Part shown: piece by piece, positions 25,543 to 42,890 of the stretch
Position numbering within the stretch: position 1 is the first letter of the stretch
How the letters are laid out: each line of letters starts with the position of its first letter
DNA from: Phycisphaerales bacterium
GTDB taxonomy: Bacteria; Planctomycetota; Phycisphaerae; Phycisphaerales; UBA1924
Direction of reading: 5' to 3'
Assembly: GCA_029260475.1 (NCBI GenBank)
Contig: JAJDDE010000137.1
Coordinates: 1 to 43,488 of the forward strand
Length of the DNA stretch: 43,488 nt
Program-made: the position numbers and the translations under genes
The notes under the pieces: generated by a model
What the model was told of the DNA's origin: nothing
The model's database searches: none
The model's input: the letters and a program-made list of their open reading frames with translations, nothing else

Positions 25543-26199
25543 TCACGCGAGTGAGGCGGCGACGGGCGCGAGCACGCGTCTTCGCTTGCGGTGCATCCGA
25601 ACGATCAGGATCACACCGACCGCGATCGGCACGAGCCCGGCGGCGAGTTGCAGCGCCTCGCGCAGCGTGGAGACGCCGCTGATGGGGGAGGCGGACGAGG
25701 TGTAGCTGGTGCCGGTTCCCGCGGGAAACAACCCCTGCCCGCCCTGCACGCCGCTCAGTGAGAGCCCCGACCAGGCGGGACTCAGCGCTGTGGTTGCGAC
25801 GGAACGGGCATCGTCGAGTTCGTCGGCGAAACCCGCCCACGCATTCGCCGCGGTACCGTTTTTCAAGAGCGCTTTGTGGAACATCGCGTCTATCGCGAGC
25901 GTGATGTCTGCACTCGTTCCTGATTGAATGCCCGACCCCGTTTCGGAGCGGTGCTCCCACGTGTCTGTCTTGAAGTCGTACAAGACGGTGTCTGTCGTCA
26001 CCGCTCCCTGCCTGAACTCGAACGTGACGGTGCCGGACCCCGCCAGCATGTGCTGACTCGCGATCGTGGTGGGGCCTTCGTGCGTGACGCGGAGGCTGTG
26101 CGGGCGTGGCACGCCGTTCACGGTGCGTGTCGTGATCGCTCTGTAGTCTTGATACTTCTTGATGTACCCGACACTCGCGGTGCCGTGCGATGCGAGGTT
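25543..26199 (-). pseudogene. C-terminal part of zinc-ribbon membrane protein, separated by in-frame TAG
   Basis: The frame downstream of the TAG at 26200-26202 stays open for 218 codons. It is clearly protein-coding: 'ASVGYIKKYQDYRAITTRT', 'LYDFKTDTWEHRSETGSG' and a final membrane helix 'LREALQLAAGLVPIAVGVIL' followed by 'RMHRKRRR'. The first possible start is a GTG at 26121, which would cut off about 26 coding-looking residues and would lack a leading signal or helix. This segment therefore looks like the ectodomain and last helix of the gene beginning at 26517. If used separately, the open frame from GTG is 192 residues. Confidence 0.65.
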
Positions 26200-26517
26200 C
26201 TACGCGGTGCCGACGGCGCTCGCGACCATCGTGCCGATGATCACGGCGCCGATGAGGATGGACGCCGCGAGCAGCGGGAAGGGCGGGCCCATGCGGAGGG
26301 CGAGGGCGGGGGTGAGCGTGCCGGCGTGCGCGTAGGTTTCGCCGCACTCGGCGCAGCGGTCGGTGGCGCGCGGGTCGGCGGGGTAGCCGCAGGTGCCGCA
26401 GACGGGCGTGCCCTTGTGCATCGCGGCGTAGAGCCTCTTACGGGAGCGCCCCAGTGTGCCGCGGGAGAGCCAGACGGCGGCGATGAGGAAGATCAGGATG
26501 ATCCACTGGATGCCCAT
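26200..26517 (-). CDS. N-terminal part of zinc-ribbon membrane protein ending at an in-frame TAG
   Basis: A 105-residue product: membrane helix at 4-18 ('IQWIILIFLIAAVWL'), zinc ribbon with Cys40, Cys43, Cys55 and Cys58 ('CGTCGYPADPRATDRCAECG'), then a second helix at about 80-102 ('PFPLLAASILIGAVIIGTMV'). It stops with TAG, and coding-like sequence continues in the same frame to 25543. Paralogues at 32.6-36.6 kb have exactly this order followed by an ectodomain and a third helix, so the intact ancestor would be about 324 residues. A nonsense mutation, a sequencing error or stop-codon readthrough are all possible. Confidence 0.68.
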   Translation of the reverse strand: MGIQWIILIFLIAAVWLSRGTLGRSRKRLYAAMHKGTPVCGTCGYPADPRATDRCAECGETYAHAGTLTPALALRMGPPFPLLAASILIGAVIIGTMVASAVGTA

Positions 26518-31031: not shown

Positions 31032-31514
31032 TCAGTCGTCCTCGTCCTCGGACATGTCCCCGAGCTCGACGAAGGCCTCGACGACGCCGGCCAGGGCGTT
31101 GGCGAAGTGGGGCGCGTGGTCCTTCGCGTCGATGGCCTTGGGGCCGATGGGTGTCTTCCAGCGGAAGACGAAGCGCATGTCCTCGTCGCGGCAGTGGGTG
31201 TTCGGGACGAGCTTGCCCAGGTTCCAGCCGGTATCGACGATCTCCTCGTCCACCATGTCGTCCAGATCGTCGCCGCTGAACATCAATGAGGCCTCGATGG
31301 ACTGGCTGAGGTAGCGGTTCTCGGTGGCCCAGGTGAACCACACGCCCGCGTCGTCCACCTCCACGCAGAACTGCGCTTCTTCGGGCGTGCCGGTCGCGTG
31401 GGCGGTCACGAGGTGGCCCTTGCGCTCGGCGCTGTCGAAGCGATCATGGGCCTTCAGGCGGGTGGCGAGCTCGTCGAGGAAGGCGCTGGCATTGGCGGGG
31501 ATTGTGGTGGTCAT
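31032..31514 (-). CDS. hypothetical cytosolic protein with acidic tail
   Basis: A 160-residue protein of unknown function: an N-terminal helix ('NASAFLDELATRLKAHDRF'), a small sheet ('GHLVTAHATGTPEEAQFCVE', 'GVWFTWATENRYLSQSIE', 'DMRFVFRWKTPIGP') and a C-terminal helix ending in 'GDMSEDEDD'. The alternation of helix and four strands recalls YbjN or type III chaperone-like folds, but I cannot assign it. GGGAG seven bases before the ATG at 31514 favours this start over ATG at 31520. It is divergent from prmC with about 110 bases between starts. Confidence 0.75.
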   Translation of the reverse strand: MTTTIPANASAFLDELATRLKAHDRFDSAERKGHLVTAHATGTPEEAQFCVEVDDAGVWFTWATENRYLSQSIEASLMFSGDDLDDMVDEEIVDTGWNLGKLVPNTHCRDEDMRFVFRWKTPIGPKAIDAKDHAPHFANALAGVVEAFVELGDMSEDEDD

Positions 31515-31615
31515 GGTCATGCTCCCGGTCTCCGTCGTGGGTGAACCAGAGCGTATACGCCGCGCGGAGGGTGGGCCTGATTGTTGCGGCGTGTACTCCC
31601 TGCCACCCCCGCCCA

Positions 31616-31621
31616 TATGCT
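31616..31621 (+). promoter_or_regulatory. -10-like hexamer for leaderless prmC
   Basis: TATGCT ends six bases before the ATG at 31628; the intervening CAGACG is too short for a ribosome binding site and spacer. Confidence 0.45.
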
Positions 31622-31627
31622 CAGACG

Positions 31628-32626
31628 ATGGCGGCACCTCCCCAGACACAGTGGACCACGCGCTCGCTCCTCAAATGGATGTCCGACGCCTTCGGCGAGC
31701 GGGGCCTCGAGTCGCATCGCGTGCTCGCGGAGCTGCTGATGGCCCACGTCGTGGGCTGCAACCGCATGCGCCTGTACATGGAGGCGGACCGCCCGGCGTC
31801 GGCGGACGAGCGCGAGCGCCTGCGGGCGCTGGTCGTCCGCGCCCTCAAGCACGAGCCGGTGCAGTACCTCGTGGGCGAGGCGGTGTTTTTTACACACAAC
31901 TTCGAGGTGGACCCGCGCGTGCTTATCCCACGCCCGAGCTCCGCGGTGCTCGTGGAGGCGGTCATCGAGCACGCCAAGCGCACCGGGAGGCACGCGGCCA
32001 ACCCTTACGACGACGTGCCGGGGGCGGGGGCGGGGTCCGGGGCTGGTGTACAGACGGACGACGAGGGCGAGCCGGTCGAAGCGCCGGCGCGCGAGGTGGT
32101 GCCGATGACGGTCGCGGACGTCTGCACGGGCTCGGGCTGCTTGGCGATCAGCGTCGCGAAGGCGATCGGCGGTGCGCGTGTGGTCGCGACGGATGTCTCG
32201 AGCGATGCGCTCGAAGTCGCGCGATCGAACGCCGAGCGGCTGGGCGTGTCGGACCGGGTGGCGTTCGTGGAGGGCGATCTCCTCGGCGCCTTGGAGGGGC
32301 ACATCCCCGAGGGCGGTTTCGATGCGCTGGTCGCCAACCCGCCCTACATCCCGGACCACGAGTGGGGTGCGGTGGAGCCGAACGTGAAGGACCACGAGCC
32401 GTCGCTCGCGCTGCGCTCCTCGCCCGACGGGCTGCGCCACGCAGAGCCGATTCTCCGCGGCGTGCTGGAGGTGCTCGCGCCGGGCGGGTTGTTCGCGGTG
32501 GAGGTGGCGTCGAGCTGCGCGCAGGAGGCGCTGGCGATCGCGCACGGAACCGGTCTTCGAGAGGCCCGTATCGTGAATGACTTCGAGGGCCTTCCACGCG
32601 CCGTGGTGGGCACACGACCCGACTGA
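31628..32626 (+). CDS. prmC: peptide chain release factor N5-glutamine methyltransferase
   Basis: PrmC methylates the Gln of the GGQ motif in release factors RF1/RF2. The 332-residue protein has the helical N-terminal release-factor-binding domain ('WTTRSLLKWMSDAFGERGLE'; 'PVQYLVGEAVFFTHNFEVDP'), the SAM-binding motif 'VADVCTGSGCLAISVAKAIG' (about 162-181) and the catalytic 'NPPY' at 237-240. Between the domains (119-160) is a Gly/Ala/acidic insertion not seen in typical PrmC, making it ~40 residues longer than usual. No prfA gene is adjacent. The start is the first ATG of the protein-like frame. Confidence 0.93.
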   Translation: MAAPPQTQWTTRSLLKWMSDAFGERGLESHRVLAELLMAHVVGCNRMRLYMEADRPASADERERLRALVVRALKHEPVQYLVGEAVFFTHNFEVDPRVLIPRPSSAVLVEAVIEHAKRTGRHAANPYDDVPGAGAGSGAGVQTDDEGEPVEAPAREVVPMTVADVCTGSGCLAISVAKAIGGARVVATDVSSDALEVARSNAERLGVSDRVAFVEGDLLGALEGHIPEGGFDALVANPPYIPDHEWGAVEPNVKDHEPSLALRSSPDGLRHAEPILRGVLEVLAPGGLFAVEVASSCAQEALAIAHGTGLREARIVNDFEGLPRAVVGTRPD

Positions 32627-32643
32627 CCGAACGGTGGTTCGTG

Positions 32644-33591
32644 ATGGTGCTCGACGATGGTATGTGGGCGTTCGTCTATGTGTGCGTGCTCTCGTGGTTA
32701 TGGTTCTTCGAATACCGAATGGGAGAGTGGTGGCACGCACGATCGCAGGGCGGTGTGGTGCCGCGTTGCGTTCGATGCGCGTACGACGTAACGGGCCTGC
32801 CCGCTGGAACGACGAGATGCCCGGAATGTGGCGAGACGCTCGATGACACCGGCGTGTTGCTCTCGGGTGAGCGTGTTCCGAAGCGGCTTCTTGCAAATGC
32901 GCATGCATCGCGCACGGTTCTCTTGCTGCTGTTGGTCGTGAGCCTGATCGTGCTCGTGCCGAGTTGCCCGCCTTTCGGGACCAAGCACGTCGCGTCGAGG
33001 GTGGTGCGGATCGACGCACCATCGGCTCCAGGGGCTTTCATCCGCGTTGAACGACGCACTCTTTACCCTGCGTATTATGAGCACGGGTCGATGCCGCTCC
33101 GGGGTACGCCTCATTCGGGCTGGTGGTCACAGCGGACGTACACCGCACGGGTCGATGGCGGGGGTATCGGTCCGCTGCGGCTCGAGCCTTCGATCGATCG
33201 TTCCGCAATCGAAGCGTGGGTCGCTCGAGCATCGCCGTCCTTGAACGCGTCGGACCGAGAGCGTGTCGCGCACGGCATCGGTGTGTACGTACGGGATCTC
33301 GGTGCTGCATGGGGAGACATCGAACCGCCGGAGACGACGTGTGTCACGAATACGCTAAACGGCCTTGATCGAGATGCATCGATGCAGCCGTTGGTCGGTC
33401 TTCTCGCGGCGTTCGGGCGGCCATCGTTGGCGACGACACGGTGGCGACACGGGCTGCACATTGTGTTGTATGTGCTGACGTACACGCCGATGCTCTGGGG
33501 CATCGTGATAGTCGTCCGCCGGGCCAAGAGACGATACGACGCCGGCCTGGAGGCGTTGCAAGCGACAGCACACGCACAAATTACCGTGTGA
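32644..33591 (+). CDS. zinc-ribbon/transmembrane/ectodomain protein, paralogue 1
   Basis: A 315-residue membrane protein: helix 1 at about 7-24 ('MWAFVYVCVLSWLWFFEY'), a cytoplasmic zinc ribbon with Cys42, Cys45, Cys59 and Cys62 ('RCVRCAYDVTGLPAGTTRCP' then ECG), helix 2 at about 88-106 ('TVLLLLLVVSLIVLVPS'), an ectodomain of ~170 residues, and helix 3 near the end ('IVLYVLTYTPMLWGIVIVV') followed by a basic tail. The zinc ribbon pattern is very common in planctomycete hypothetical proteins; the function is unknown. GTG 32641 and ATG 32644 are both possible. First of four tandem paralogues, 17 bases after prmC. Confidence 0.75.
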   Translation: MVLDDGMWAFVYVCVLSWLWFFEYRMGEWWHARSQGGVVPRCVRCAYDVTGLPAGTTRCPECGETLDDTGVLLSGERVPKRLLANAHASRTVLLLLLVVSLIVLVPSCPPFGTKHVASRVVRIDAPSAPGAFIRVERRTLYPAYYEHGSMPLRGTPHSGWWSQRTYTARVDGGGIGPLRLEPSIDRSAIEAWVARASPSLNASDRERVAHGIGVYVRDLGAAWGDIEPPETTCVTNTLNGLDRDASMQPLVGLLAAFGRPSLATTRWRHGLHIVLYVLTYTPMLWGIVIVVRRAKRRYDAGLEALQATAHAQITV

Positions 33592-33626
33592 TCGCACTGG
33601 CGATAATCGGGCGATGCCGTAGATTC

Positions 33627-34610
33627 ATGCGAACGGGGGTGAGGTTCGGGCGTCTCTTGGTCCGAGGGGGTCTGGTGCTCTACGTTGCGGTTCTCTCAGC
33701 CTTGTTCGTTGCCATCGCCTGCTGCGCGTGGTGGGGGGTTCGCCCCGCTTCTCGGCGTGAGGGCGGTGTGCGCTGTGCCGGTTGCCGGTACGACCTCAGT
33801 GGCTGTGTGCCGAGCGAGACGCCGGTGTGTATCGAGTGCGGGCGCGATCTCGCGGCGCACGGCGTTGAGCGACCGGCTCGTTGTAACGCGTGGAGCGTCA
33901 GCACGCGGATGCGTGTTGCGCTCGTCGTGTCGGTGCTGATCGCGCTGGGCATCGGTGTGCTCGTGCTGCTGCGGTACCCGCCGGTGATGCAGAGCGTCAC
34001 CGAGACCACGCGGTGGGAGTTCTATGGCGAGCCCGCGCCCCTCACGACGCTGATCGCGGAGGAGTCGGTCGTGAAGAGTCTCGATCAGGTGACGAGCCCG
34101 CTCGAGTACTTCGCGCCGTCGCTCGGGCCGCCTGAGGAGTTCGAGCGTGTGCTGGTTTTACGGATGCCGACGATCCCGCCGAGTGAGCATGATGTGGGTG
34201 CCGCGGAAGAACCGGGCCCCGCGATGGTCGAGTGGTTCCGAGGCATGATCCCCTCGCTGAGCGACCGGGATATTTCGGATGTGATCGGAGCCCTCTCGTC
34301 GTTGCGGCCCGAACTCGATGCGTTCGCGGAGGCGCTCTCGGCGCACGATGCGCTTCGCAGCAACGTCTGCCTGCTGAACGAGATCGGGAGCTCGGTGACG
34401 TGGGTGCAGCCGCGGAACCGGCTGGCGCGTGCGATGGGTTTCGCGGAGATCGGGGGCGGCAACCTGCAACGGACCACGTGGGTGCAGTTCTCGAACGTCG
34501 CGCTGTGCCTGCTGCCGTTGGGTGTGGTGCTCGCGGGCTTCGTCGTACTCGGGCGGAGGGTGCGCCGGTCGTTACGGCGTAGCGCGATCGCGTGGCGTGC
34601 CGGGGCGTGA
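33627..34610 (+). CDS. zinc-ribbon/transmembrane/ectodomain protein, paralogue 2
   Basis: A 327-residue protein with the same plan: helix 1 ('LVLYVAVLSALFVAIACCAW'), zinc ribbon with Cys50, Cys53, Cys68 and Cys71 ('RCAGCRYDLSGC', 'CIECG'), helix 2 ('MRVALVVSVLIALGIGVLVL') leading into 'RYPPVMQSV', the ectodomain containing 'TSPLEYFAPSL', and 'RTTWVQFS' before helix 3 ('ALCLLPLGVVLAGFVVLG'). The blocks RYPPVMQ, TSPLE and TTWVQ recur in paralogue 3, proving close relationship. The ATG at 33627 is used; a GTG at 33588 overlapping the previous stop is an alternative that would couple translation. Confidence 0.75.
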   Translation: MRTGVRFGRLLVRGGLVLYVAVLSALFVAIACCAWWGVRPASRREGGVRCAGCRYDLSGCVPSETPVCIECGRDLAAHGVERPARCNAWSVSTRMRVALVVSVLIALGIGVLVLLRYPPVMQSVTETTRWEFYGEPAPLTTLIAEESVVKSLDQVTSPLEYFAPSLGPPEEFERVLVLRMPTIPPSEHDVGAAEEPGPAMVEWFRGMIPSLSDRDISDVIGALSSLRPELDAFAEALSAHDALRSNVCLLNEIGSSVTWVQPRNRLARAMGFAEIGGGNLQRTTWVQFSNVALCLLPLGVVLAGFVVLGRRVRRSLRRSAIAWRAGA

Positions 34611-34675
34611 TGGGGATGTATCGACGAGCATGAGGGCTCCGGTGGTAGGTTGCGGGGGAGGATCGGAGGCTCCCC

Positions 34676-35611
34676 GTGCTCTTTCTCGGTGTGATCCTGA
34701 CGCTCGGGATGCTCATCGCGCTGTGCGCGTGGTGGTCGTTGCGGACGGGGCGTGGCAAGGCAATGCGGTGCGCCGGGTGTTCGTACGACCTGGGCGGGTG
34801 CGACGCGAGGACCACCGAGGCGTGCCCGGAGTGCGGAGCAGTCATCGCGGAGCGCGGCGTGGAGTTTCGCGGGCCGGTGGGGGGACGCCGGCGCACGCGT
34901 TGGGGATTCGCGATCGCGCTGTTGTGCGCGCTCGGGATGGGCGGTTTGATGGTGCTGAGGTATCCGCCGGTGATGCAGACAGTGCGGACGACACGGGAAG
35001 GTGCGTTTGTTGGCACGAATCTCGCTCCGCCTATCGAGATGCGCGAGGAAGTCGTGACGCACCCGGGGTACGCGACGAGCCCGCTCGAACACGTGTTCCC
35101 CTCGCTGACGGGACCGGCGACGTACGTCGATTCGTTCATTCTCACCTATGGAAAAGAGACCCCGACCCCCATCGATATCCGTGAATGTGCCGAGCCGAGT
35201 GTCGCAGCGATAAATTGGGCGCGCATGCGAACGCCTCCAATCGAAAATGGCCATCTTCGACTCCTCGTCACCGCACTACGACGCGAGGGATTTTCCATGG
35301 GGCGAGCCCTTGGGATGCTCGAACCCGAATACAGGAACATCCAGTTGCACCGGCATAACACCTCTTTCATCATCACACAGGTCTCCGCCACCCCGACTCC
35401 CCAACAATCAAGCATTTCGATCGCTCTCGGCCTCGCCCCGCGGATCGGCGCGGATTGGGAGCGCACGACGTGGGTGCAGCGCTCGAGCGCGGTGTGGTAT
35501 GTGCTGCCGTCGGTGGTGGTGTTCTTTGTGTTCTGTGTGCTGGGTCGTTCGCGGCGGCTCGCCGCCGTGAACGAAGTTGAACGCTGGAGAGGGCGTGGGG
35601 GTGTGGCGTGA
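34676..35611 (+). CDS. zinc-ribbon/transmembrane/ectodomain protein, paralogue 3
   Basis: A 311-residue protein: helix 1 ('LFLGVILTLGMLIALCAWW'), zinc ribbon with Cys32, Cys35, Cys50 and Cys53 ('RCAGCSYDLGGCDARTTEAC' then PECG), helix 2 ('GFAIALLCALGMGGLMVL') followed by 'RYPPVMQTVRTTREG', an ectodomain with 'TSPLEHVFPSL' and 'ERTTWVQRS', and helix 3 ('VWYVLPSVVVFFVFCVLG'). The start is GTG, fixed by GGAGG six bases ahead (34665-34669). The ectodomain's middle (about residues 170-240) has diverged from paralogue 2. Its stop overlaps the next GTG by four bases. Confidence 0.78.
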   Translation: MLFLGVILTLGMLIALCAWWSLRTGRGKAMRCAGCSYDLGGCDARTTEACPECGAVIAERGVEFRGPVGGRRRTRWGFAIALLCALGMGGLMVLRYPPVMQTVRTTREGAFVGTNLAPPIEMREEVVTHPGYATSPLEHVFPSLTGPATYVDSFILTYGKETPTPIDIRECAEPSVAAINWARMRTPPIENGHLRLLVTALRREGFSMGRALGMLEPEYRNIQLHRHNTSFIITQVSATPTPQQSSISIALGLAPRIGADWERTTWVQRSSAVWYVLPSVVVFFVFCVLGRSRRLAAVNEVERWRGRGGVA

Positions 35612-36597
35612 ACTGGTCTCTCATTCTCGTGGTCTCGTCCGCGCCGGTTCTCGCTTGGGCGCTCTTCATATCGCTCTGCCGCGAGATCAGGGTGTGGCGG
35701 AGCGTGCCGCGTGTGGCGTGGTGTACCGCCTGCGGGTACGACCTGTCCGGGCAGCGGGCGGGGGCGTCGGCCAGATGCTCTGAATGCGGCTGCGATCTCG
35801 CGGACCTGGGCGTGCGCGCGGTGTTCCCGTGGACTCGGATGAAGCAGGGTATGGACGCGCATCGTGTCGCCCGGCTGTCACGATGGACTCTCACCATCGG
35901 CTCGTTGCCCGCGATCATGTTCTTCGTGCTCGCCAAGCCGCCCTATGCGTTCGTGCGCCGGGACGTGATGCTGTTCACGCTCGGGCAAACACCGCCGGGC
36001 CTCGGAGTGCTGACCGTCGAACAAGAGCATGTGTGGGTGGAAACAGACATGCCCTCCGGTGAGGAGGGTGACTACTCACACCTCGGGCCGACGCTTTCTG
36101 ATACCTGCATCGCGCGCAGCTCTGTGGCGGGTCCGCCCGATCTGGATCTTCGGGATCCGGCGGTGACGTTCGAGGAGATCGTCGCGTGGGTATCGGGGGT
36201 GGATCCCGGGACCACGGGGCGCCCGGCGCAGCGGGTGGCGCTCGTACTCATCCTCCGGTCCGCTGCATCACAGAGGTTTTTGGAAAAGCGGGCGGATGAG
36301 TTCGGCTGGTATTGGCCCACACAACCCTTGCAACCCTTTGCGAGCGTGACCCACACGCGCAACGGGGTCACGAGTGTGTTGTTGCCGCCCGCCAGCCCGT
36401 CGTGGCGCGGCCTGTGGTCGCACGTTGGTTCGATCAGCTTTGCGCACGCCGAGGCGAAGCATTGGTGGCGTCTTGCGTTCGTGGTGTTCCTGCTGATCGT
36501 GGTGGTGGTGCTCCACATCGGCTTGCCGCGGTGGTACAGGATGTTGTGCCGGGCGCGGCACCGGCGGTGGCGATGGTGGCTGGAACAGGGCCCGTAG
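35608..36597 (+). CDS. zinc-ribbon/transmembrane/ectodomain protein, paralogue 4
   Basis: A 329-residue protein: helix 1 ('SLILVVSSAPVLAWALFISL'), zinc ribbon with Cys39, Cys42, Cys57 and Cys60 ('WCTACGYDLSGQRAGASARC' then SECG), helix 2 ('TLTIGSLPAIMFFVLA'), a more diverged ectodomain with an 'EIVAWVSG' helix comparable to those of the paralogues, and helix 3 ('LAFVVFLLIVVVVLHIGL') followed by a very basic cytoplasmic end ('RMLCRARHRRWRWWLEQG'). Starts with GTG overlapping the previous stop, so genes 3 and 4 are translationally coupled. Confidence 0.78.
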   Translation: MNWSLILVVSSAPVLAWALFISLCREIRVWRSVPRVAWCTACGYDLSGQRAGASARCSECGCDLADLGVRAVFPWTRMKQGMDAHRVARLSRWTLTIGSLPAIMFFVLAKPPYAFVRRDVMLFTLGQTPPGLGVLTVEQEHVWVETDMPSGEEGDYSHLGPTLSDTCIARSSVAGPPDLDLRDPAVTFEEIVAWVSGVDPGTTGRPAQRVALVLILRSAASQRFLEKRADEFGWYWPTQPLQPFASVTHTRNGVTSVLLPPASPSWRGLWSHVGSISFAHAEAKHWWRLAFVVFLLIVVVVLHIGLPRWYRMLCRARHRRWRWWLEQGP

Positions 36598-36632: not shown

Positions 36633-36947
36633 ATGCCCGATACCCCCGACAACACCCTGCACGACGCGTTGGTGAAGGCCGCGCGGCTGGCGCACTTGGA
36701 TCTGCCCGGCGAGCGGTTGGAGGCCTTGGTCGGCGGCGCGGAGCGGATCTTGGCGCACGTGGAGCGGATGGGGGCGATGGACTTGGAAGGCGTGGAGCCC
36801 CTGGTGCATCCGCTGGACGGCGTGGGCACCCTGTCGTCGGACGAGCCGGGCGAATCGCTTGCGGCGGATGACCTGATGGGCATGGCGCCGGTCGCCCACC
36901 CGCCCTTCGTGAAGGTGCCCAAGGTGATCGACGGGGGTTCGTCGTGA
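36633..36947 (+). CDS. gatC: Asp-tRNA(Asn)/Glu-tRNA(Gln) amidotransferase subunit C
   Basis: GatC is the small subunit that holds GatA and GatB together in the complex that converts Glu-tRNA(Gln) and Asp-tRNA(Asn) to the amidated forms. The 104-residue protein has the usual pattern 'VKAARLAHLDLPGERLEAL' at the N-terminus, 'ILAHVERMGAMDLEGVEPLV' in the middle and the C-terminal 'APVAHPPFVKVPKVID' that wraps GatA. Length is normal. It overlaps gatA by four bases, so both are made together. GatB is not in the window. Confidence 0.92.
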   Translation: MPDTPDNTLHDALVKAARLAHLDLPGERLEALVGGAERILAHVERMGAMDLEGVEPLVHPLDGVGTLSSDEPGESLAADDLMGMAPVAHPPFVKVPKVIDGGSS

Positions 36948-38398
36948 CCGGCGGGGGTGCGGACGCTTGGCTGGACCGCCCGGTGCGCGAGATCGCACGC
37001 GCCGTGCGCACGGGCGAGGTGTTGTGCACCACGCTGGTGGAGGCGTCGTTCGCGCGGATCGATGCGCTGGACGAGGAGATCAACGCGGTGGTGTCGCTGG
37101 AGCGCGAGCGCGCGCTGGCGCGGTCGGCGGTGATCGATGACGCTGTGAAACGGGGCGAGGACCCGGGGGCGCTCGCGGGCGTACCGGCGCTCGTGAAGGA
37201 CAACCTGTGCACCGACTGGGGGACCACGACGTGCGCGAGCATGATGCTGGAGGGGTACCGCTCGCCCTTCAGCGCGACGTCTGTGCACAAACTCGAGGAC
37301 GCCGGGGCGGTGGTGCTGGGCAAGGCGAACATGGACGAGTTCGCGATGGGCGGCTCGGGCGAGCACAGCGCGCTGGGTGTCACGCGGAACCCGCTGGACA
37401 CGTCGCGCTCGCCGGGGGGCTCGTCGAGCGGGTCGGCGGCGTCGGTCGCGTCGGGCATGGTGCCGCTGGCGCTGGGCTCGGACACGGGCGGATCGGTGCG
37501 CCAGCCCGCCTCCTTCTGCGGCGTGGTCGGTGTGAAGCCGACGTACGGGCGCGTGTCGCGCTACGGGCTGGTCGCGTTCGCGTCGAGCCTGGATCAGGTG
37601 GGCGTGCTGGCGCGGGATGCGGACTCGGCGGCGCTCGGGCTGAGCGCGATCGAGGGGCACGACCCGCTGGACATGACGAGCGCGCAGCGCGGGCACTCGG
37701 GGTGTCATGAGGCGCGTGATGTGCGGGGCCTGAAGGTGGGTGTGCCGCGGGCGCTGCTGGATGGGGTTGACGCCGGTGTTGCCGCCGGATTCGAAAACGC
37801 GAGCTCGGCGTTGGTGGCGCGTGGTGTTGAACTCGTGGATGTTGAGATGCCCTCGGTGGAAGGGGCGGTGAGCGCGTATTACGTGCTGGCACCCGCCGAG
37901 GCGTCGAGCAACCTGGCGCGGTTCGACGGGGTGCGGTACGGTCGTCGTGCGGCGATGGAGGCGGGGGCTTCGGTGGGCGAGATGATCGCGCGGTCGCGGG
38001 GCGAGGGCTTCGGCGAGGAGGTGCAGCGGCGCATCGTCATCGGTACGTTCGTGCTGAGCGCCGGCTACCACGATGCCTATTACACCACGGCGCAGCGCGT
38101 GCGCCGACTGGTGAAGAACGATTTTCAGCGTGTCTTCGAGAGCGGGTGCGCTGCGGTGCTCACGCCGACGGCGCCGAGCGCCGCGTTCGAACTCGGCTCG
38201 TTCGAGAACGATCCCTTGGCGCTGTACCTGCAGGACGCCTTCACGATCCCCGCGAACCTCGCGGGGCTGCCGAGCGTGAGCGTGCCTTGTCCCGGCGGTG
38301 CATCCATCGGGAGTGGCCTTCCCGTCGGCGCGATGCTGACCGGTCACGCGTTCGACGAGCGCACGGTCATGTCCCTCGCGGGGGCGATCGGCACTTAG
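36944..38398 (+). CDS. gatA: Asp-tRNA(Asn)/Glu-tRNA(Gln) amidotransferase subunit A
   Basis: GatA is the glutaminase/amidase that releases ammonia for tRNA-dependent amidation. The 484-residue amidase-signature protein shows the Ser-cisSer-Lys triad: Lys85 in 'GVPALVKDNLCT', the cis-Ser in 'SPGGSSSGSAASVASG' (about Ser160) and the nucleophile in 'LGSDTGGSVRQPASFCG' (Ser184), then 'GVKPTYGRVSRYGLVAFASS'. Starts with GTG overlapping the gatC stop. Its TAG stop (38396-38398) overlaps the TAA of the convergent metalloprotease gene, leaving no room for a terminator between them. Confidence 0.96.
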   Translation: MTGGGADAWLDRPVREIARAVRTGEVLCTTLVEASFARIDALDEEINAVVSLERERALARSAVIDDAVKRGEDPGALAGVPALVKDNLCTDWGTTTCASMMLEGYRSPFSATSVHKLEDAGAVVLGKANMDEFAMGGSGEHSALGVTRNPLDTSRSPGGSSSGSAASVASGMVPLALGSDTGGSVRQPASFCGVVGVKPTYGRVSRYGLVAFASSLDQVGVLARDADSAALGLSAIEGHDPLDMTSAQRGHSGCHEARDVRGLKVGVPRALLDGVDAGVAAGFENASSALVARGVELVDVEMPSVEGAVSAYYVLAPAEASSNLARFDGVRYGRRAAMEAGASVGEMIARSRGEGFGEEVQRRIVIGTFVLSAGYHDAYYTTAQRVRRLVKNDFQRVFESGCAAVLTPTAPSAAFELGSFENDPLALYLQDAFTIPANLAGLPSVSVPCPGGASIGSGLPVGAMLTGHAFDERTVMSLAGAIGT

Positions 38399-42485: not shown

Positions 42486-42890
42486 TCAGCCCTGGCGCGG
42501 AGCCCCGCTGTCGGGTAAGCGCCAGGCACCGCCGCATTCGGGGCAGACGGTGCAACCGTCGTCCACTTGTGGGACGCCGCACAAGTTATAGAGGCACCAG
42601 AGGCAGCGTTTGTTCGCCCGAAGTGCGCGATGTTCCATGATCGGGACGAAGTACACAACGTGTACGCCGAGCATCGGGAGGGCGATCACGTAGCAGAAGA
42701 ACATCAGCACGCCGGACTCGTCGATGAGTGTGGCGAGTGCGCCCACGATGACGAGTAGCACTCCCGCGGCGAAGAACGCGATCATCCACGCCGGCGCGTT
42801 TCTCCACATATTCGACGTGGGTTTTCGCGTCGCGACGAACCACCAGCGGGGGCATTTGCGCACCCATGCCCGGTCGTCGTACACCTTCAC
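42486..42890 (-). CDS. zinc-ribbon membrane protein with reversed domain order
   Basis: A 134-residue protein with two membrane helices at about 34-53 ('AWMIAFFAAGVLLVIVGALA') and 62-83 ('LMFFCYVIALPMLGVHVVYF') and then a C-terminal zinc ribbon: Cys96, Cys99, Cys116 and Cys119 ('RCLWCLYNLCGVP', 'CPECGGAW'). It therefore has the same ribbon family as the 32.6-36.6 kb cluster but at the C-terminus and without ectodomain. Start is uncertain: GTG 42890 and GTG 42884 are possible, and an internal ATG gives a shorter form. It is upstream of the large secreted protein gene on the same strand. Confidence 0.62.
   Translation of the reverse strand: MKVYDDRAWVRKCPRWWFVATRKPTSNMWRNAPAWMIAFFAAGVLLVIVGALATLIDESGVLMFFCYVIALPMLGVHVVYFVPIMEHRALRANKRCLWCLYNLCGVPQVDDGCTVCPECGGAWRLPDSGAPRQG

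Follow-up and report, generated by a model that had tools for sequence, protein, structure and literature searches.

The 43,488-nucleotide stretch of Phycisphaerales DNA analysed here (contig JAJDDE010000137.1, hereafter the window) carries, between prmC and gatCA, a run of four genes for membrane proteins with a zinc ribbon and an outer domain (ectodomain). This raises the question of whether the genes arose as a tandem expansion of one family, and of what such a family might do. An earlier note on this DNA had proposed four consecutive genes with a common plan of helix, ribbon, helix, ectodomain and helix, and the open reading frames and hydropathy profiles confirm both the four plus-strand genes and their plan. 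The features are as follows.

25543..26517, minus strand: member of the same plan, its one reading frame broken by an in-frame TAG near 26200
31502..32626, plus strand: prmC/hemK (release-factor methyltransferase), named from sequence motifs alone
32644..33591, plus strand: gene 1 (P1, 315 aa), with TM1, ribbon CVRCAYDVTGLPAGTTRCPEC, TM2, an ectodomain of about 163 aa and TM3
32974..33459, plus strand: ectodomain of gene 1
33627..34610, plus strand: gene 2 (P2, 327 aa), with ribbon CAGCRYDLSGCVPSETPVCIEC and an ectodomain of about 175 aa
33975..34496, plus strand: ectodomain of gene 2; the gene 3 ectodomain is its homologue
34676..35611, plus strand: gene 3 (P3, 311 aa), with ribbon CAGCSYDLGGCDARTTEACPEC; a true paralogue of gene 2
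34958..35488, plus strand: ectodomain of gene 3
35608..36597, plus strand: gene 4 (P4, 329 aa), with ribbon CTACGYDLSGQRAGASARCSEC and an ectodomain of about 180 aa
35932..36471, plus strand: ectodomain of gene 4
36633..38398, plus strand: gatC (36633-36947) and gatA (36944-38398), downstream of gene 4
42486..42890, minus strand: ribbon protein of another architecture, helix-helix-ribbon, with no ectodomain

Gene 1 has an alternative start at the GTG at 32641. Gene 3 begins with a GTG that has GGAGG ahead of it, and an alternative GTG near 33674 in gene 2 aligns with this start; the start is uncertain for both gene 2 and gene 3. The four-base overlap reported for genes 3 and 4 is present as GTGA at 35608-35611, and the intergenic gaps in the array are 35, 65 and -4 bases. 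Because the distances at its borders are also short, about 17 bases from the end of prmC/hemK to gene 1 and 35 bases from gene 4 to the start of gatC, the whole stretch from prmC through the four genes to gatCA looks like one operon. The four genes have a third-position GC content (GC3) of 0.70-0.81, which is still coding-like, whereas values of 0.87-0.93 are usual in their neighbours.

In all four proteins hydropathy gives a helix, a ribbon loop, a second helix, an ectodomain of 160-180 aa, a third helix and a basic tail, although the TM1 helix of P1 and the TM2 helix of P4 are detected solely at lower thresholds. The tails contain 5-7 lysines and arginines against 0-2 aspartates and glutamates, which suggests that the C-terminus, and with it the ribbon, would lie in the cytoplasm. 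The ribbons follow the pattern CxxCxYD[L/V]xG...C[P/S/I]EC, and both the sequence and the AlphaFold2 prediction (pLDDT about 80) present the two CxxC knuckles as one predicted folded site, as in a zinc ribbon. In these predictions, two models made from an alignment of the four sequences, the helices were also confident and the ectodomains fell below pLDDT 50. Both models have ectodomain strands followed by helices; they share one alignment and hence are not independent. A fold search with the predicted ectodomains (pLDDT below 50) found no match at E <= 0.001.

Two further members of the family had been proposed in the window, and the plan is shared by just one of them. The gene at 25543-26517 has it, with coding-like sequence on either side of the TAG, so that a recent pseudogene, an assembly error and two short genes are the alternatives; the gene at 42.5-42.9 kb has only the ribbon in common with the array.

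For genes 2 and 3 the case for duplication is strong. P2 and P3 are 34% identical over 316 aligned positions (E = 7e-41), the alignment containing the common blocks RYPPVMQ, TSPLE, PSL and TTWVQ just as had been noticed before, and their ectodomains align far above shuffled controls (z = 22.5). The same codon is used at just 44 of the 101 identical residues (8 of 19 in the ribbon, 22 of 51 in the ectodomain) and the divergence must therefore be old; we accordingly read genes 2 and 3 as old tandem duplicates. Identity is 54% in the ribbon, 41% in TM1 and 32% in each of TM2, the ectodomain and the tail. In this pair, then, the ribbon is under constraint and the ectodomain has changed no faster than the membrane helices, and the fast-diverging ectodomain that had been suggested for the family does not hold.

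The tandem expansion does not extend as clearly to genes 1 and 4. Homology of ectodomains is clear between P2 and P3 alone: those of P1 and P4 compare with those of P2 and P3 at the level of shuffles (local z from -0.6 to 0.1), and the similarity between P1 and P4 themselves is marginal (z = 3.0, reached by 8 of 500 shuffles). The N-terminal modules of P2 and P3 resemble each other more than they do those of other ribbon genes. This is false for P1 and for P4, whose modules find equal or better matches among ribbon proteins of other genera than in genes 2 and 3. Given these shuffle controls and module comparisons, we rejected the homology of all four ectodomains as a demonstrated fact. Descent of all four genes by tandem duplication from one ancestor is possible but, for the same two reasons, is not demonstrated, and the P1 and P4 ectodomains have either diverged past recognition or were separately derived.

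Perhaps, instead, genes 1 and 4 are independent recruits and the array is a hotspot that gathers ribbon genes of differing descent. This is a question of origin, which we rated apart from the readings of function, and we give it a chance somewhat short of even. Besides the failure of the P1 and P4 ectodomains to align with those of P2 and P3 and the equally good matches of their N-terminal modules elsewhere, the surroundings of gatCA speak for it, as ribbon genes of differing architecture occupy this site in different genera. On the other hand, all four genes have their parts in one order and are of similar length, and the P1 and P4 ectodomains bear a marginal resemblance to each other.

Ribbon genes recur at the gatCA site. 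Of 41 relatives whose gatA could be read, 8 carry one no more than 1.5 kb upstream of it, where the ribbon density further away would predict about one such case (P about 1.6e-5), and in one more relative a ribbon array begins 2.2 kb from gatA. Loci with a ribbon-membrane gene upstream of gatC/gatA are L065, L070, L075, L078, L214, L229, L230 and L162. Six of the gatCA neighbours, from six genera (L064, L065, L070, L075, L214 and L230), align as one family (alignment A6) at 28-30% identity with the motifs ESMDE and TRVLWxGVAHN. This family resembles the array in the kind of ribbon, in having a domain of comparable size between membrane helices, and in its genomic neighbourhood, but its order is TM-ectodomain-TM-ribbon, with the ribbon C-terminal, and it is usually on the opposite strand. 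Its profile did not match the window ectodomains with hhalign (probability 0.4%), and descent of the array from it consequently finds no support. Since ribbon genes occur there in 8 of 41 relatives and the outer domain of the six aligned neighbours is not detectably related to those in the window, the gatCA site is a recurrent home for ribbon genes of differing architecture, and the array's presence there is probably owed to a resident ribbon gene that was duplicated or replaced. The recurrence may reflect either a link to translation or merely a permissive site.

Within the bacterial family the ectodomains occur in this genome alone. A profile of the ectodomains by themselves, run over 163 of the family's genomes from 74 genera, gave nothing credible beyond the own genome; seven matches in other genomes (E from 0.012 to 0.041) were dismissed as chance because their reading frames have no ribbon. 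A scan of GTDB species genomes with gene 2 found no relative. One-to-one conservation of the genes among related genomes, which would have spoken against an expansion, is thus not what we see, the ectodomains being present in no other of the 163 genomes.

A profile built from 36 ribbons matched 43 times in the 3.4 Mb genome that contains the window and 49 and 37 times in two genomes of the same family, whereas in 86 other Planctomycetota it gave 3 weak matches (E from 3e-5 to 6e-5) in 2 genomes; among these 86, the single genome sampled from the same order (f5) and the single one from the same class had no match, and the two with matches belong to the other 84. A profile of P1-P4 found ribbons in 55 of 61 relatives within the order. 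The planctomycete type of the ribbons, and two Phycisphaerales MAGs (L115 and L162) among 80 named GatA matches, probably place the organism in Phycisphaerales. With a strict DNA pattern, genomes of the same order that had any match had 1-12, and elsewhere the matches did not exceed the reversed control; no ribbon with YDL and the six-residue spacing was found elsewhere in the phylum. Pfam, NCBIfam, PHROGs and PADLOC have no model that matches the array proteins above its cut-off, and when ten other proteins were compared with Pfam-A only one passed the gathering threshold, through HEAT repeats that lie outside its ribbon. No account of the ribbon family turned up in searches of the literature. 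The earlier suggestion that the family had not been described is therefore upheld: it is an undescribed family of about 40 genes per genome, and from the profile counts it seems confined to one planctomycete order.

Across the collected sequences the ribbon consensus is C-x2-C-x-[YF]-D-[LV]-x-G-x(n)-C-P-E-C-G, with four cysteines and a variable spacing of 17-34 residues. Besides the cysteines the Tyr/Phe-Asp-Leu-x-Gly stretch is conserved, and at the CPEC position, where the search pattern did not impose it, glutamate is found in 70 and proline in 66 of 71 distinct ribbons, a set gathered partly by profile similarity. Membrane association is the rule, with a predicted helix in 135 of the 138 ribbon reading frames collected over all loci and at least one in each of the 37 classified ribbon genes of the own genome. 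There the ribbon is N-terminal in multi-helix proteins, flanked by a helix on either side, or C-terminal behind a helix-ectodomain-helix unit, and ribbons are also fused to 12-helix proteins. A recognisable partner domain is rare; one such case is the TM-ribbon-TM protein at 2275-3564 of L097 (G008:C186), with HEAT repeats in its outer part (PF13646, E = 1.5e-11). At 8864-10582 of L099 (G037:C2), an apparent fusion joins a PfkB-like (ribokinase-type) kinase, a ribbon and membrane helices, as read from sequence motifs alone.

Ribbon genes are also clustered. In the own genome 21 of 41 lie no more than 2 kb from a second one, where random placement predicts 1.9 and gave at most 10 in 2000 simulations; the largest array there, L093 (G000:C154:5219-8302), has at least seven short ribbon-multi-helix genes and reaches the contig end. 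Arrays in other genera number 3-8 genes, and their TM-ribbon-TM proteins carry an outer domain of 400 residues, for example L069, with 7 genes on the fetched stretch and one on L080, and L078, with 3 genes. These share with the window the N-terminal module, the tandem arrangement and a ribbon more conserved than the rest, but their ectodomain is about twice as long and unrelated in sequence, and a C-terminal helix is usually missing. Compared with all this the array of the window is an ordinary-looking local cluster, and the interest sits in the ribbon family rather than in the array.

In a few arrays the ribbon DNA itself seems to have moved between neighbours. Three tandem genes of L084 (G039:C59, 4958-7309) are 26-35% identical outside the helices and the ribbon, whereas their ribbons reach 89-97% identity and share about 94% of their codons, within ribbon-centred direct repeats of 110-147 bp. 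We take this ribbon DNA to have been copied locally, by gene conversion or as a cassette. Ribbon-centred similarity between otherwise divergent neighbours was also seen in the own genome, over 85 bp at 93% (L198, G000:C64 near 16461 and 17402), and as near-identical DNA in L099. As a general rule gene conversion of ribbons was rejected, because codon identity within a genome is 0.61 for tandem pairs and 0.57 for distant pairs; for the same reason only these few arrays (G039 C59, G037 C2 and the own C64, not the window) stand out.

Among known proteins the closest match to the ribbon is the archaeal C(P)XCG zinc finger protein HVO_2753. Its family (NF041909) is the nearest in NCBIfam (E = 0.0011), with two C(P)xC(G) knuckles in common, and its structure (PDB 6ydh) is the closest solved one for the full ribbon (E = 0.0033 and 0.0039), the PDB entries that score better covering just the CPECG half. 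P1 scores 18.8 bits against a curated cut-off of 80 bits and so does not belong to NF041909, and HVO_2753 differs in being a free protein of fewer than 70 residues that has four knuckles and lacks a membrane helix. It is reported to bind a single zinc ion, where two sites had been predicted (PMC11241148). The ribbon could conceivably be a rubredoxin-like iron site, and hence a redox module, as CxxCGY...CPxCG resembles rubredoxin-type knuckles and there are weak matches to rubrerythrin-like models (E = 0.049) and to rubredoxins (E from 0.18 to 2.4). However, the full-length match to 6ydh, itself weak, is better, no redox partner is encoded nearby, and we find this quite improbable.

A layout of cytoplasmic ribbon, helix and extracellular domain is that of TcaA. 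This protein of Staphylococcus aureus, a 454-residue zinc ribbon domain-containing membrane protein (PMC10611510), is a precedent for the layout and an analogue in how it might work. The array proteins match no TcaA-like model in Pfam or NCBIfam, and TcaA is a single gene in the tcaRAB operon that has not been expanded.

As to what the proteins do, our tentative preference, held at less than even confidence, is that a cytoplasmic ribbon docks one common partner and that variable envelope domains are coupled to it. The ribbon, which would lie in the cytoplasm and is predicted to bind one zinc ion, would probably dock this common cytoplasmic partner, each variable domain across the membrane would sense or bind a different envelope ligand or protein, and the array would amount to parallel envelope adaptors feeding one intracellular partner. 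A docking surface is favoured over a purely structural knuckle because conservation extends to residues with no part in metal binding, namely the Glu of CPEC and Tyr/Phe-Asp-Leu-x-Gly. Ribbons on multi-spanning proteins fit a structural role equally well, however. The ribbon might then be a small zinc-stabilised cytoplasmic domain that helps many unrelated membrane proteins to fold, oligomerise or become oriented and takes no part in signalling, spread by duplication and fusion and persisting as harmless or stabilising. Its presence at the N-terminus, in the middle or at the C-terminus of very different membrane proteins, the 12-helix ones included, its variable spacing and the lower GC3 of the array, consistent with weak constraint, would all suit such a module; conservation of Tyr/Phe, Asp, Gly and Glu exceeds what metal binding needs, and we rate the structural role somewhat below the docking of a common partner.

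The involvement in conflict that had been mooted for these genes, as a defence system with variable extracellular receptors, has little to recommend it beyond the orphan ectodomains and the tandem arrays of several genera in which the ribbon is conserved and the remainder divergent. No PADLOC or PHROGs match and no other link to defence was found, the neighbours are housekeeping genes (prmC, gatCA), the ectodomain does not outpace the helices in divergence and the ribbon family is scattered over the whole genome, all of which makes a role in conflict very improbable.

Returning to a ribbon that docks a common partner, its widest form would be a signalling or adaptor repertoire specific to the order, in which one ribbon and one partner serve dozens of rapidly replaced envelope domains, arrays are the birthplace of new domains and ribbon DNA is copied locally in a few of them; in this full extent we consider it unlikely. 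Whatever the role, about 40 copies of an unnamed ribbon in a 3.4 Mb genome, near-absent outside one order, are a large unexplained investment for bacteria that have been little studied. As none of the searched libraries recognises the ribbon, its members are likely to have been left as hypothetical proteins, and the family merits a domain model. A ribbon with conserved residues other than its cysteines is also an experimental handle, and a single bait could reveal the partner of the family.
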